A DNA stretch of 41,893 bases, taken from contig NZAJ01000016.1 in assembly GCA_002687495.1 (NCBI GenBank), positions 1 to 41,893 on the forward strand, written 5' to 3'. A model generated the notes under the pieces. It made no database searches and had not been told where the DNA came from. It saw nothing but the letters and a program-made list of their open reading frames with translations. A program made the position numbers and the translations under genes. The DNA is from Micavibrio sp. GTDB lineage: Bacteria; Pseudomonadota; Alphaproteobacteria; Micavibrionales; Micavibrionaceae. Shown here piece after piece: positions 22,853-28,740 of this stretch (the first letter of the stretch is position 1; each line of letters starts with the position of its first letter).

Positions 22853-23944
22853 TTAAGGGAAATCTACGGCGCCAGAGCTTTTCTTAAAGGTACCTATTTT
22901 AGGGAGGGCAGGTGCAGGGCGCTCTTTTGCACGCTCTTCAGATTCGCGGATCATTCTCGCTTTTTCGTCTTCTTCGATTTTCTTTATCTCATCGGCAGCT
23001 TCAGCTTCTGCCTTTTTGTAGAAGTCAGGATTTGTAAGCTCTTCTTTTAAGAGTACGATAGAGATGCGTCTGTTGCCGGCGCGTGTTGGTTCATCTGGGT
23101 AGAGATGCTCCGTATCTGCTTTACCTACGACGTTATTGATACGCTCTTTAGGGAAGCCGCCATCTAAAAGAACACGGCGTGATGAGTTCGCGCGATCGGC
23201 GGAGAGTTCCCAGTTAGTATAGCTAGCGCTTTTACCGTAGGGAACGCTGTCTGTATGGCCGCGGATAGATATTTCGTTTGGCTCTGGCTCTATAACGTCA
23301 CCGACTTTATTTAGGAGCGTTTTTGTTTTTTCATACATACGCGCCGAGCCTGTTGCAAACATTGGATTGCCCTCGCGGTCAATGATTTGAATGCGCAGCC
23401 CTTCTGGTGTGATGTCAATCACCAGATTATCTTTCATCTTTTCAAGTTCAGGGTTGTTTTCAATGGCAGCTTCTAGCTTTTTCTTGGCCTCTTCCATGCG
23501 CTGTAATTCTTCTTGGCGCAGTTTTTCTTTTGCTGCTTCTATGGCTGCTTCTTTCAGTTCTTCCGATGAGCCAGCATTTTTCTCATTGCCTTGAGTTTTT
23601 CTGGAGGAGCGATCATTAACGCTTGAGCCGCTAGGTCTTGGAGATGTTATAGGCTGAACGTTGGTGACTTGAGCGCCTTCGGGTGCGACAGATAGGCCGC
23701 CAAGAACGCCGCCGGCACCACTTTCAGATTGAGATACTTTAGGATGCGTTGGATCAAAGTAGTTCGAGATTGCGTTTTTTTGCTCCTCGGTTGTTACATT
23801 TAAGAGCCAAAGAAGAAGGAAGAAAGCCATCATCGCCGTTACGAAGTCAGCATACGCAACTTTCCATGCGCCGCCGTGGTGGCCGCCGCCTTTTTTAATT
23901 TTCTTAACAATAATGGGCTGGAGTTCGCCTTCTTCGTCAGCCAC
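22853..23944 (-). CDS. motB: Flagellar motor stator protein MotB
   Basis: The peptidoglycan-anchored stator subunit that, with MotA, carries the ion flow that drives the flagellum. The 363-residue protein has a basic N-terminus, then one membrane helix in KVAYADFVTAMMAFFLLLWL, where Asp33 is the ion-binding residue. A Lys/Glu-rich coiled linker of about residues 100-175 follows. The OmpA-like peptidoglycan-binding domain covers about residues 190-310 (ISIRGHTDSVPYGK, ELSADRANSSRRVLLDGGF, GNRRISIVLL). An extra charged tail of about 50 residues, rich in Glu and Lys, follows the OmpA domain. It follows motA by 33 bases in the same unit. Confidence 0.95.
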   Translation of the reverse strand: MADEEGELQPIIVKKIKKGGGHHGGAWKVAYADFVTAMMAFFLLLWLLNVTTEEQKNAISNYFDPTHPKVSQSESGAGGVLGGLSVAPEGAQVTNVQPITSPRPSGSSVNDRSSRKTQGNEKNAGSSEELKEAAIEAAKEKLRQEELQRMEEAKKKLEAAIENNPELEKMKDNLVIDITPEGLRIQIIDREGNPMFATGSARMYEKTKTLLNKVGDVIEPEPNEISIRGHTDSVPYGKSASYTNWELSADRANSSRRVLLDGGFPKERINNVVGKADTEHLYPDEPTRAGNRRISIVLLKEELTNPDFYKKAEAEAADEIKKIEEDEKARMIRESEERAKERPAPALPKIGTFKKSSGAVDFP

Positions 23945-23977: not shown

Positions 23978-24871
23978 TTATGCGCCAGGCGCAGGAAGTT
24001 CGTTTAGACGTTCTTCTAATTCTTGGAATGTCGGCTGCACATCATGTGGTAGGAATTTTCGTGCAAATTCAACAGCAACTTGTGGGGCTGCACCATTTAA
24101 GAATGCGATAATACCAACTTTGATACATTTAAAGTACATAACTTCTGTTTCTGCTTTCGCAGTCATAGCACCTGCGATAGGTGCAATCATACCGTATGAT
24201 ACCCAAACCCCAAGGAAGGTACCTACGAGCGCTCCACCAATCATCTTGCCTAGAACCTCCGGTGGTTCAGAAATCGAGGACATTGTTTTGATAACACCTA
24301 AAACAGCCGCAACAATACCAAGGGCAGGGATACCATCAGCCATTGTTTGTACGGCATGACCTGGATGGCCTTCATGATGTTCAATTGTTTCAATTTCTTC
24401 ATCAAGTAAAGCCTCTAATTCATGTGGATTTTCATTGCCTAAGGAGATAATTCTCAAGTAATCACACAAGAAAACGAGGGCATGATGGTTGTGTTGAAAG
24501 CTTGGGAATTGTTTAAAAATCTCACTCTCTTCGGGGTTTTCAATATGGCTTTCAAGCGCTAGCCAACCTTTGGTTCTGGCTAATTTGAAAATGGTAAATA
24601 GAACTGAAAGCAGCTCCATATAATCATCTTTTGAATAAGCAGCCGGCTTTGTTAAGGCACTCAAATATTTTATAGAGCCTTTAATGACTTCACCATTATT
24701 AGCAACGAGGAACGCGGATACCGCACATCCCAAAATAATAACGACCTCCCCAGGCATAGCAGTCAATACAAGCATGAGAAGCTTCATGAATTTGGGCATG
24801 TCGAAACCCATGGCAATTAAGAGACCACCAAATGTGCAAACAAAAACTAAGATAAGGCCGACTAGTTTCAT
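23978..24871 (-). CDS. motA: Flagellar motor stator protein MotA
   Basis: The four-helix membrane subunit of the flagellar stator. At 297 residues it is of the longer MotA type found in proteobacteria. Helices are visible at the N-terminus (residues 1-20 and 28-58) and in the C-terminal half, with DGIPALGIVAAVLGVIKTMS and MIGGALVGTFLGVWVSYGMI. The charged cytoplasmic loop between them (about residues 70-170) contains the torque-generating segment, with LARTKGWLALESHIE and LRIISLGNENPHELEALLDE. It is upstream of motB on the minus strand. No other flagellar genes are in the window. The 136-bp gap between it and the EAL gene upstream shows no clear terminator. Confidence 0.95.
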   Translation of the reverse strand: MKLVGLILVFVCTFGGLLIAMGFDMPKFMKLLMLVLTAMPGEVVIILGCAVSAFLVANNGEVIKGSIKYLSALTKPAAYSKDDYMELLSVLFTIFKLARTKGWLALESHIENPEESEIFKQFPSFQHNHHALVFLCDYLRIISLGNENPHELEALLDEEIETIEHHEGHPGHAVQTMADGIPALGIVAAVLGVIKTMSSISEPPEVLGKMIGGALVGTFLGVWVSYGMIAPIAGAMTAKAETEVMYFKCIKVGIIAFLNGAAPQVAVEFARKFLPHDVQPTFQELEERLNELPAPGA

Positions 24872-25007
24872 GACTTTGTAATATATACCTTTAGCTAGGA
24901 GTTAGCGGGTAAGCAGTAAGTTTATATTTAAGAAGCAGCAATGTTTATTTTGCGGTTTTTTTGAAAAAATAGCAAGGATGCGCGAGGTGTTTATACCAAA
25001 AATGATT

Positions 25008-26642
25008 TTATTTTTGTGGCGGAATGAAGTTCGGAGATTCCTGCGCTCCACCAAAAAGTTCGCCTTGGCCGTATTGAACGCCAATGCTTTTTAGAAGCTC
25101 TAGCTGTTCTTGTGTTTTTATGCCTCTGGCATAAATGGTGATGTTTGCTTCTTTGCATTCTTTACTCACTTGAGCATATGCCATTTGTGTTCTTTTGTCT
25201 TTTAAGAGGCGCTTTGTGTATTTACGGTTTACTTTGATGCTGTCTGCGGAAAGTGTTGTTACTAGCTCTAGCGCTGTAGAATCTGCATTGCAGTTATCAA
25301 GTGTGACATCGAAGCCGAGGTCTCTTAACATTTTTATAAACTTCGCAGCTTTGCCCATATCTTTAATTTGGGCGGAGTGTGATATTTCAAAATGAAGGCG
25401 CTCTGGTAAGTTCTGGCCTTTTAGGAGTTGTTCTTTTATTTTTTCTAAGAATTGCTGATTTTCAATACATGTGGCAGAGATGCTCATTGAGAATTTGGTT
25501 CTTGAGCCACCTGATTTGAAGTTGATGTGATTTACGACGCGCTCACAAAAGGAAATGTTGAATGAGGGCATGAGCCCTGAATCTTCAGCGATCATCATCC
25601 ATTCTTCTCTATTTCCGGTGTGAAAGTGAGGGACGATCTCGTAGTGAATCGGTGTTTGGTCTTCAAGTGTCATGATTGGGAGGAAGTGAAGACCAAAATC
25701 AACGCGGTCAATAATGCTCTTGAGCTCGTCAACTTTATCTTTTTGTTCAGTCGCCAGTTTTCTCAAGGTTTCGCTGAACTCAGAAAACTCTAAATCTTTT
25801 ATGTCATCGGTTGCTTCAAAGCCTGTGAGCATGTAAGCGAGGGCCTTTTCTGCACCCCAATCTCCGACTTTATCTAAGTCAGCGACGACTGTTAAATCTT
25901 CAGGGATGTAACCTGTGGTGCCATCTGGAGCATGTTTCTTCGCGATTTGACCAAGTTCAGCTTTGAAGCTTTCTATGTCTAAATCCGGGTCATGAGGAAG
26001 GAGGTATTTATTGTCATCAATTTTGCATGGATTGACATTGTTGAATGAGTTGCTTTGAAGAAAACTCGCCAGTTCTTCCTGGAATTTTCCAAAAGCTTCG
26101 TCATCAAATTCTTCTATTATTTCCTGTGTAAAACCAAAGTCAAAGAGGGTCATTTCCGGATCAATGCCCATAGATTGTCCGAAGTCGAATATCTCATCTG
26201 CATCATCTTTGAAATCGGAAACGCTGGCAAGATCCCCATGGTGAACTGGGGGCGATGCAGCGAGTTTGCTCATAAGCTTGTTGCTTAGGCCGAGAGTGAT
26301 GTAAAACCCTTCGCTGCCTGGCATCTTAATGCCCGTGAGTACGGCTTTGCGCCTAGAGATGCTTTCGTCTAGATCAACGAGAACTGGGCCGCAGCGTTTG
26401 CCAGGCTTTGCCTTTTCATATAATTCAATGAGCTGGGCTTGGTCATAGGCAGAAAATAAATCCAGCCATTTCTTGCCCATCAGGTCTTCTTCGCCAAAGC
26501 CTGTCATGCCTTTTGATGCGCCCAATGTGAAAATAACTTTGCCCGTATCAGAGGCTTCAATGAATAGGTCTGCAGATGCAAAGGCGAAAGCGAGGAAGAG
26601 GTCTCGTTGTTTTTTTATCTTTTGATCTTTATTATCAGACAT
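25008..26642 (-). CDS. PAS-like plus degenerate EAL domain protein
   Basis: A 544-residue soluble protein. About residues 15-120 look like a PAS domain (FIEASDTGKVIFTLGASKGM then GFGEEDLMGKKWLDLF). Residues 120-310 are an acidic linker, with DEIFDF and EEFDDEAFGKFQEEL. Residues 310-535 are an EAL fold. The EAL motif reads YEIV (Glu335 kept), but the usual Asn is Ser387, the DDFGTG loop is DNCNAD (Asp449-Asn450), KID is KVN (Asn472), and the AEGVE Glu is Arg506. Known active c-di-GMP phosphodiesterases need these metal and catalytic residues, so this one is probably inactive and acts by binding c-di-GMP or a protein. It lies upstream of motA on the same strand, which suggests a role in motility control. 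Confidence 0.85.
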   Translation of the reverse strand: MSDNKDQKIKKQRDLFLAFAFASADLFIEASDTGKVIFTLGASKGMTGFGEEDLMGKKWLDLFSAYDQAQLIELYEKAKPGKRCGPVLVDLDESISRRKAVLTGIKMPGSEGFYITLGLSNKLMSKLAASPPVHHGDLASVSDFKDDADEIFDFGQSMGIDPEMTLFDFGFTQEIIEEFDDEAFGKFQEELASFLQSNSFNNVNPCKIDDNKYLLPHDPDLDIESFKAELGQIAKKHAPDGTTGYIPEDLTVVADLDKVGDWGAEKALAYMLTGFEATDDIKDLEFSEFSETLRKLATEQKDKVDELKSIIDRVDFGLHFLPIMTLEDQTPIHYEIVPHFHTGNREEWMMIAEDSGLMPSFNISFCERVVNHINFKSGGSRTKFSMSISATCIENQQFLEKIKEQLLKGQNLPERLHFEISHSAQIKDMGKAAKFIKMLRDLGFDVTLDNCNADSTALELVTTLSADSIKVNRKYTKRLLKDKRTQMAYAQVSKECKEANITIYARGIKTQEQLELLKSIGVQYGQGELFGGAQESPNFIPPQK

Positions 26643-26856
26643 ATGAATATTTATGTGTAGGACGGTTTAAGGCTATGCCTTGTGTAAGGCTATCGTAATA
26701 TAAACTGATTCTTTATAACATATTATTAATGAATATCGTTGGCTTTAAAATTTTAATTGAATAAAATTACTTTTCTTTTGTCTTTAATCCCTATAGAAAA
26801 TACAGGTTTACGTTTGTGTATTAGGCTAATAATTTCGGGATTTGTGGGAGGCTTTG

Positions 26857-28740
26857 GTGTTTACCTTTGCTATTGATCCAATCATACATATGTGGTTTGC
26901 GCTGGCTGTTACGGTTTTTGCTGTAACATCCTTTATACGTGAGCGCGTTCCAATTGAAGTGACATGTGTGACTTTGTTAACTGTCTTGCTCTTATTCGGG
27001 CAGTTTTTCCCTTTATATAATGAGACAGGCGATAATCTACTTCGTGCTTCTAGTTTTTTGGCTGGATTTGCAAACCCATCACTTATAGCCGTGCTTGCGT
27101 TGCTTGTGATGGGGCAGGGCATGATCCAAACTGATGCATTGCGTCTTATGACGAATTACTTTGTGGCGACGAAAAAAGAGCGTGTTTGGGCGTCTATAAT
27201 TGCCATTATGCTATTCATTTGTGTGTTAAGTGCATTTATGAACAACACGCCGTTAGTTGTTATTGCAATTCCATTTATTCAGGCTCTTGCTAATAGTGCG
27301 GGCATGTCGGAAAGCCGTGTGATGATCCCGCTGAGCTTTGTGGCGATTTTAGGTGGTATGACAACATTGGTTGGTTCATCTACGAACCTTCTTGTTTCAA
27401 GCTCTTTAGTTGAGCTTGGCTATGAGCCTTTAAGCTTTTTCTCTTTTGCAGTTCCTGGTGCTATTATGGCGGTCATCGGCTTGGTCTATGTGATCTTAGT
27501 TGTACCGCGTTTGCTGCCTGATCGTTCTTCTATGGTGAAGGATTTTACAAATGCGAAGAAAGAATTTGTAGCGGAGATGGATGTTGCTGCAGATTCACCT
27601 TTAATTGGTGTCGAATGCGTTGATGGCAAATTCCCTGTCCTTGGTGATTTGAATGTAAAGCTTATTCAACGTGCTGGGCACTTAATCTTACCACCTTTCG
27701 AAAATTACCGTATTGAAGAGAGTGATATTTTGATCGTGGCGGCTAATAGAGAAACGCTCGGCGATCTTTTGTCTAAATATCCTGGGTTTTTGTTATCAGA
27801 AGAAGATAACCAGTATATTAAGCCGGAAAAAGATGAGCCAGGGATGGATGCTGATAAAGCTGAAACACGTGTTATGGCTGAAATTATGATCACCCCAGCT
27901 TCGCGGATGGTTGATATGTCTTTGGAACATGTGAATTTTCAAAGACAGTTTGGTGTAATTGTTTTAGGCATTCAAAGACGGGCGAAAGCTGTGCGTCGTC
28001 GTTTGGGCCGCATTCGTTTAGAAGCCGGGGATGTGCTTTTAATTACTGGTAAGCGGCGCATGGTTGATGGTTTGCGTGATAACACGGATGTGATTGTGTT
28101 GTCAGGTTCTCGCCGTGACTTATTATTGCCACGTAAAGCGCCTATTGCTGCGGCAGTTTTTGCTTTGACGATTTGCTTGGCGGCTTTGAATGTATTGAGC
28201 ATTCCTGTGGCAGCGATTACGGGCGCAGTCTTGATGATTGCAACAGGCTGTTTGAATATCAGGCAAGCTACGCGTGCTATTGATCGTAAGATCTTCTTGC
28301 TTGTGGGCTCTATGCTTGCTTTGGGTGTAATCCTTCAGGTTTCTGGTGGTGCGCATTATATCGCTGAGCAGATATTAGCGTTGCCATTCGTGCAGACACC
28401 CGTGGCTATGGCGGCTGTTTTGTTTATCATTGTGGCTTTAGCGACCAATGTTTTGACAAATAATGCGTGCGCTATTTTGTTTACGCCTATCGCGATGAGT
28501 ATTGCGAGTGGTTTGCCTGAAGCTGAGGGGGCTGCATTTTCTATGGAGTTTATATTTGCAGTTACCGTTATTTTTGCGGCGAACTGTTCTTTTGCCTCGC
28601 CAATTGGTTATCAAACAAACCTTCTTGTGATGGGGCCGGGGCATTATCGCTTTAGAGACTTTATAAAAGTCGGTGTCCCCTTGATGTTTATATTATGGAT
28701 AAGTTATATTGGTTTGCTGAAATATTATTTTGGTTTATAA
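26857..28740 (+). CDS. SLC13-family permease with central TrkA-C domains
   Basis: A 627-residue inner-membrane anion transporter. Two membrane blocks, about residues 1-205 and 410-627, flank a cytoplasmic part with two RCK_C (TrkA-C) domains: ADSPLIGVECVDGKFPVLGD through EESDILIVAANRETLGDLL, and ASRMVDMSLEHVNFQRQFGV through RLEAGDVLLITGKRRMVDGL. The two SLC13 hairpin motifs are visible as LVGSSTNLLVSSSLVELGY and SPIGYQTNLLVMGPGHY. Substrate (sulfate, dicarboxylate or other anion) cannot be decided. I chose GTG 26857 because GGGAGG at 26846-26851 is 5 bases before it; TTG codons at 26842 and 26854 are alternatives. The 214-bp region upstream shows no clear promoter; it holds the short dyad AAGGC-TAT-GCCTT. 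Confidence 0.88.
   Translation: MFTFAIDPIIHMWFALAVTVFAVTSFIRERVPIEVTCVTLLTVLLLFGQFFPLYNETGDNLLRASSFLAGFANPSLIAVLALLVMGQGMIQTDALRLMTNYFVATKKERVWASIIAIMLFICVLSAFMNNTPLVVIAIPFIQALANSAGMSESRVMIPLSFVAILGGMTTLVGSSTNLLVSSSLVELGYEPLSFFSFAVPGAIMAVIGLVYVILVVPRLLPDRSSMVKDFTNAKKEFVAEMDVAADSPLIGVECVDGKFPVLGDLNVKLIQRAGHLILPPFENYRIEESDILIVAANRETLGDLLSKYPGFLLSEEDNQYIKPEKDEPGMDADKAETRVMAEIMITPASRMVDMSLEHVNFQRQFGVIVLGIQRRAKAVRRRLGRIRLEAGDVLLITGKRRMVDGLRDNTDVIVLSGSRRDLLLPRKAPIAAAVFALTICLAALNVLSIPVAAITGAVLMIATGCLNIRQATRAIDRKIFLLVGSMLALGVILQVSGGAHYIAEQILALPFVQTPVAMAAVLFIIVALATNVLTNNACAILFTPIAMSIASGLPEAEGAAFSMEFIFAVTVIFAANCSFASPIGYQTNLLVMGPGHYRFRDFIKVGVPLMFILWISYIGLLKYYFGL

Follow-up and report, generated by a model that had tools for sequence, protein, structure and literature searches.

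Inactive EAL proteins are well known; the passage from an active enzyme to a non-enzymatic regulator is, to our knowledge, seldom visible within one orthologous gene. In the EAL domain the first Glu of the EGVE motif acts as the catalytic base, one Glu stabilises loop 6 and the remaining signature residues bind Mg or substrate, and EAL domains without the base are classed as predicted inactive, as set out in part of PMC12900916. For such inactive domains, a section of a review describes the ExLxR motif as determinative for c-di-GMP binding (PMC10333796). LapD and FimX, which combine a degenerate GGDEF with an inactive EAL domain, bind c-di-GMP through ExLxR (parts of PMC12564702 and PMC10333796). 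In CsrD, an RNA turnover protein in which GGDEF and EAL are both degenerate, a change of ExLxR accompanies loss of binding, and YdiV/STM1697, which bind FlhD4C2, neither cleave nor bind c-di-GMP (both in part of PMC10333796). Among the alphaproteobacteria, the flagellar EAL protein TipF places the motor in Caulobacter (PMC3764195, in part).

Here we analyse a gene of Micavibrio sp. (Alphaproteobacteria; Micavibrionales) on a stretch of 41,893 nucleotides, contig NZAJ01000016.1 of assembly GCA_002687495.1, referred to as the window. The window protein belongs with the known degenerate EAL proteins, and what is unusual is a graded series of losses within one orthologous gene. Like YdiV/STM1697, it has an inactive EAL domain, probably without c-di-GMP binding, and a flagellar theme (PMC10333796, in part), but those are EAL-only proteins with transcription factors as partners, whereas this EAL domain follows a PAS and a GGDEF-fold domain. 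Like LapD and FimX, it carries a degenerate GGDEF domain beside the EAL domain, but it has lost their ExLxR motif. Orthology with CsrD, which it resembles in having both domains degenerate, was rejected (73.2 bits with the NCBIfam CsrD model against a cut-off of 663), as was orthology with TipF (29.6 bits against 600). A search of open-licence PMC papers returned, among the matches listed, no literature on this orthologue family.

A predicted PAS-GGDEF-EAL protein encoded upstream of motAB

The open reading frame is real and complete, with exactly the coordinates of an earlier sequence-only reading. As that reading had it, the gene sits next to and upstream of motA-motB; all three genes share a strand, and 136 bp separate the EAL gene from motA. 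The source genome is a 1.97-Mb draft, 90.5% complete, of which the window is contig C16. The features are as follows.

25008..26642 (-): gene for the PAS / degenerate GGDEF / degenerate EAL protein, 544 aa, ATG start
26283..26630 (-): N-terminal helix and PAS-like domain, residues 5-120 (predicted structure, conserved positions)
25812..26222 (-): degenerate GGDEF-fold domain, residues 141-277 (predicted structure)
25038..25730 (-): degenerate EAL domain, residues 305-535 (Pfam, alignment)
25278..25301 (-): remnant of loop 6, residues 448-455, where the family motif DDFGAG reads DNCNAD
23978..24871 (-): motA, stator (open reading frame and family scan)
22853..23944 (-): motB, stator (open reading frame and family scan)
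26842..28740 (+): CitMHS/DASS-like transporter with TrkA-C domains, divergent from the EAL gene

Beyond motB lies parC (the names parC and gyrB were read off translations alone), and on the other side the transporter gene occupies the place that hemB holds in most mot-linked relatives, an arrangement shared by the orthologous loci L085 and L087.

Pfam assigns residues 310-531 to the EAL domain with 130.8 bits (E 6.9e-38; cut-off 31.3), and the PAS assignment draws on sub-threshold Pfam and NCBIfam matches of full-length queries together with the predicted structure. The AlphaFold2 model of the window protein, built with 54 family sequences (mean pLDDT 89.2, pTM 0.69), has as its top full-length Foldseek match PA0861 (RbdA) of Pseudomonas aeruginosa (PDB 5xgb; E 4.2e-24), which shows the same domain order. 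In a second-look comparison with 5xge, residues 10-536 were covered with 457 positions aligned (Z 26.5) at an rmsd of 10.1, indicating that the domain arrangement of the window model differs. PA0861 has been solved with GTP and with c-di-GMP, according to the PDB titles, whereas the window protein, at 16% identity, lacks the GGDEF signature and has a dismantled EAL site.

The middle domain, modelled alone, reaches a pLDDT of 90.6. Foldseek alone returned no match with E < 0.001 for it; in the second-look alignment of residues 122-296, all 50 matches listed contain GGDEF (Z 9.5-11.4), which rules out an unrelated middle domain. The GGDEF signature itself is absent from the 14 family rows printed and from the family consensus, which reads GRYSxIHD at this place. 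The predicted architecture is PAS, degenerate GGDEF, EAL; the PAS-like sensor proposed by the sequence-only reading is supported, and the GGDEF-fold domain that separates it from the EAL domain had been missed.

Loss of catalytic and ligand-binding residues in the EAL domain

The EAL motifs align gap-free to those of C. crescentus PdeA (PDB 3u2e) and of the orthologues (sets of 59 and 96), which rules out catalytic residues at shifted positions. Nine of the 14 signature positions are changed. Asn387 is Ser, the second loop-6 Asp450 is Asn, the KID Asp472 is Asn and the first Glu of AEGVE, Glu506, is Arg; these four losses and the retained Glu335 sit where the earlier reading had put them, but its list was incomplete. 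In addition, the substrate-binding Gln321 is replaced by Leu, ExLxR has become ExVxH through Leu337 to Val and Arg339 to His, the second Glu of the family motif EITES, Glu422, is His, and the second Glu of AEGVE, Glu509, is Lys. By analogy with RocR, we take Glu422 to be the Glu that stabilises loop 6. Apart from Glu335, only Glu419, Asp449, Lys470 and Gln526 are retained.

The EAL fold is present, whereas metal- and substrate-binding residues are largely lost, and with the catalytic base turned into Arg and the second loop-6 Asp, the KID Asp and the Asn gone, the earlier verdict of probable inactivity is strongly supported. Judged by these residues, the window protein is almost certainly inactive. 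A variant site formed by the five retained residues could conceivably still support weak phosphodiesterase activity, but the combined loss of the base, the second loop-6 Asp, the Asn, the KID Asp and ExLxR makes this scarcely credible. EAL domains dimerise, and the window protein might instead serve as a regulatory pseudo-subunit, paired in the cell with an EAL protein whose site is intact. Candidate partners would be at hand, as the full set of 14 signature residues is retained in two of the five further EAL domains detected in the genome (the changed positions number 9 in the window protein, the most, and 0, 0, 2, 2 and 4 in the others), but we consider such pairing very improbable.

Since ExLxR and the substrate Gln are lost together with the catalytic residues, the window protein would not hydrolyse c-di-GMP and probably does not bind it either. 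This bears on the c-di-GMP receptor that the sequence-only reading had considered, in which an inactive protein of the LapD/FimX type still binds the ligand and passes the signal to the motor. The motAB neighbourhood would suit such a receptor, and the EAL domains of LapD and FimX rank high among the 50 fold matches listed (Z 28.3 to 26.1 within a range of 24.0-28.3), although the ranking is nearly tied, with MorA at Z 27.4 and, at about 26-27, other entries whose descriptions name no receptor. The motif through which LapD and FimX bind is, however, ExVxH here (E335-x-V-x-H339) and the substrate Gln is Leu, so that a receptor of this type is disfavoured and, for the window protein, decidedly unlikely.

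A second degenerate EAL domain was observed elsewhere in the window genome, at L004 (C6:31503-32183), with the signature QEYRNEHDHKKEEQ and a loop 6 that reads DHVDHL.

Graded losses within one clade of orthologues

By full-length homology, the window protein belongs to a Micavibrionales group of PAS-degenerate GGDEF-EAL orthologues found beside motA. Matches with E < 1e-30 are present in 66 of the 142 genomes of the order (hand count; a few are fragments); the closest full-length relative shares 42% identity over residues 7-544, and a copy in genome G061, at a contig end, shares 64% but over residues 4-109 only. A scan of the collection with the family alignment, from which the best 80 of 120 relatives were used, added sequences from Pelagibius/Kiloniellaceae, Robiginitomaculum, Phenylobacterium, Caulobacter and Asticcacaulis. 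With frames shorter than 500 aa and identical-core rows left out (for instance the frameshifted L108 and fragments at contig ends, L115 and L128 among them), the final set holds 97 different full-length sequences, window included.

All 14 signature residues are intact in 85 of the 97, which shows a family built as an active phosphodiesterase and rules out family-wide degeneracy. The 12 deviating sequences are L087 with 10 changed positions, the window protein with 9, L098 with 7, L111 and L116 with 4 each, L090 with 3, L085 with 2, and L112, L104, L092, L093 and L101 with 1 each. Eight of them, namely the window protein, L087 (genome G059), L085 (G062), L090, L098, L112, L111 and L116, form one clade (bootstrap/SH-aLRT 100/96) in a tree of 44 chosen sequences from which the 14 signature columns had been masked; a quick, unmasked tree of all 97 rows recovers the same clade (SH-aLRT 98). 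Glu422 is missing from all eight and present in the remaining 89.

Within the clade the losses are graded. In L112 and L085 the catalytic base survives along with most of the other residues; the base is gone but Q321, ExLxR and N387 remain in L111, L116 and L090, and these three suit the receptor reading better than the window protein does; in the window protein, L087 and L098 both the base and ExLxR are gone. Because L085 and L112 still carry the base, relaxation appears to have preceded full inactivation, and the simplest history suggested by these residues is a single common first step, the loss of Glu422, followed by separate losses. All eight are open frames of 543-680 aa with 34-42% identity to the window protein, their openness being partly by construction since rows had to be at least 500 aa long.

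Some orthologues show further peculiarities. L111, L112 and L116 carry an acidic repeat insert, with units such as LTTGYEADD, between the PAS and the middle domain, and L098 has a different repeat (FDDSLYNQ) at the same place; at the DNA level, Tandem Repeats Finder confirmed the repeat of L116 and reported none in L098. Among nine genomes searched, the LTTGYEADD-type repeat occurs in those of L111, L112 and L116 only, besides a match in G038 with E 0.15; the window protein is without the acidic insert, and the search of its genome turned up no such repeat. These inserts in sister members hint that some of them gained something rather than merely decayed. At L043 1486-3148 (the same as L083 and L108; genome G036) the orthologue is split into two overlapping frames within the EAL part; its catalytic residues appear intact and an assembly error is possible.

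Divergence of the individual domains

With the tree fixed, branch lengths were obtained for each domain, measured from the common ancestor of the mot-linked sequences to each tip. Median root-to-tip lengths for the eight clade tips and 23 other mot-linked tips are 1.77 versus 0.67 (EAL domain, about 2.6-fold), 1.76 versus 0.78 (middle domain) and 0.98 versus 0.65 (PAS domain, about 1.5-fold), a contrast for which we claim no exact probability, as tips and pairs have a common history; the Mann-Whitney p for the tips is accordingly no true probability. The window's own lengths are 1.73 (EAL), 1.91 (middle) and 0.60 (PAS). The acceleration is thus strongest in the EAL and middle domains, and the PAS domain is faster clade-wide and ordinary in the window. 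Pairwise identities agree, on smaller samples: at 70-75% MotA identity, 61 pairs outside the clade average 50% (PAS), 49% (middle) and 61% (EAL) and seven pairs within it, all with L090, 47, 32 and 33%; at 75-80%, the values are 55, 56 and 68% for 38 pairs outside versus 46, 23 and 27% for three pairs within; the 80-85% bin holds no pair outside the clade.

The EAL fold is nonetheless largely kept in the clade. The window protein retains 62 of 69 hydrophobic core positions (59-66 across the clade, and 67-69 in four family members from elsewhere in the tree), and among 103 polar columns it is hydrophobic at 9. A further 21 EAL positions show at least 95% constancy in the other rows; here it keeps only 11 (clade range 8-16). 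Its PAS part preserves all 8 family-conserved positions.

The main rival to a protein-binding role is ongoing decay, in which phosphodiesterase activity became dispensable in the lineage and the relaxed protein is heading for loss. The faster EAL and middle domains, with the PAS domain following to a lesser degree, are what decay would produce, as is the retention of just 11 of the 21 otherwise constant EAL positions. At the E 1e-30 threshold, 76 of the 142 genomes of the order are without a match to the gene whereas motA is detected in 134, an absence that suggests loss elsewhere; of 20 motA loci from genomes in which the orthologue is missing or sits at another place, 12 have hemB immediately before motA, and the G036 orthologue is split by a frameshift in spite of an otherwise intact site. 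Decay sits poorly, however, with the full-length open frames of eight such divergent sequences, with the complete PAS positions and ordinary PAS branch length of the window protein, and with the contrast between its hydrophobic core and its polar columns, and we consider it a serious but rather unlikely explanation.

With the fold kept and the window PAS domain evolving at an ordinary rate, the protein is instead most likely a PAS-controlled protein-binding module, and we find it moderately probable that the protein is still functional in this folded, PAS-dependent form. Counted against the protein-binding module are the faster PAS domain in the clade as a whole, a rate pattern that by itself fits slow decay, the loosened near-constant EAL positions, the many genomes of the order without the gene, the relaxation of L085 and L112 before full inactivation, and the fact that no partner is known.

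Conservation of the motAB neighbourhood

Whether the gene stays next to motAB in relatives, a check suggested by the sequence-only reading, has a divided answer: it does so in half of the genomes that could be judged. By hand count, the orthologue lies directly beside motA in 31 of the 62 judgeable genomes of the order and elsewhere in the other 31; four more of the 66 genomes with a match, among them G023, fall outside the judgeable set. All but one of the motA-adjacent genomes belong to the window's family f1 (30), the exception being G121 in f5. On the 97-row tree, where L113 of G023 was scored as mot-linked because motB is near, on the opposite strand, the link to motA/motB requires 5 changes, where shuffling gave 25 on average, and is therefore mostly inherited with few departures; L085, a member of the degenerate clade, lies away from motA. 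In the Robiginitomaculum relatives L130, L134, L139, L140 and L145, the orthologue is followed on the same strand by a receiver-like gene, named from its translation.

Of the 27 mot-linked loci that are named, 20 were called with hemB immediately upstream, one representative being confirmed as ALAD. As noted above, hemB can also precede motA where the orthologue is missing or sits elsewhere, and hemB-motA-motB-parC is a backbone that occurs without the EAL gene as well, making the neighbourhood weaker support for a stator function than it appears. The gap between the EAL gene and motA contains one further feature.

24947..24975 (-): sigma-70-like promoter candidate for motA (TTGCTA, 17 bp, CAAAAT)

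Sites of this type, with the spacer at 17 bp, occur before motA in 13 of the 27 gaps, whereas 300 rounds of shuffling gave 2.8 on average and never more than 7, a count that describes rather than tests, since the pattern was picked after reading the gaps; a stricter promoter scan did not list the window's site. From this sequence pattern motA may have its own promoter, which weakens, short of eliminating, an operon shared with the EAL gene and likewise lessens the support that the neighbourhood lends to a stator function. The regulator of stator or flagellum envisaged by the sequence-only reading is thus possible by neighbourhood, set against promoter-like sites, a hemB/parC backbone and a motA that is often without the gene; a function that concerns the stator or flagellum appears to us conceivable but doubtful.

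Discussion

We propose that the ancestral protein was an active c-di-GMP phosphodiesterase of PAS-(degenerate GGDEF)-EAL architecture, encoded between hemB and motA in many Micavibrionales. The loop-6-stabilising Glu422 would have been lost in the common ancestor of the eight sequences, after which separate lineages would have lost loop 6 and the catalytic base, and the lineage of the window additionally the substrate-binding ExLxR and Gln. The present protein would then neither hydrolyse nor, probably, bind c-di-GMP, and its role would most likely be that of a PAS-controlled protein-binding module, YdiV-like in principle, docking perhaps via the EAL surface or on a motility partner; motility as the target is suggested by position. 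The reading as a whole, a c-di-GMP-blind, PAS-controlled protein-binding remnant of an active phosphodiesterase, is one that we hold tentatively, as slightly short of probable. A bolder version is quite unlikely: an enzyme beside the stator genes turned into a c-di-GMP-blind scaffold with the PAS domain as its working part, the fold docking on the motor or its regulators and the acidic repeats of the sister proteins serving as docking sites. If so, the eight orthologues would preserve, within a single orthologous gene, living stages of a conversion of enzyme into receptor and of receptor into scaffold.

In the different predator Bdellovibrio, single mutations in motA or fliL are reported to yield host-independent, biofilm-forming strains (PMC11323537, in part). 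If the link to the stator holds, the window protein would represent an extra motility input in the little-studied relatives of Micavibrio. Within one gene, intact members (e.g. L086 and L088) can be compared with those after the first step (L112 and L085), those in which the base is gone and binding residues are kept (L090, L111 and L116) and those fully dismantled (the window protein, L087 and L098). With the same gene available at these successive stages, the order of loss is testable at the bench.
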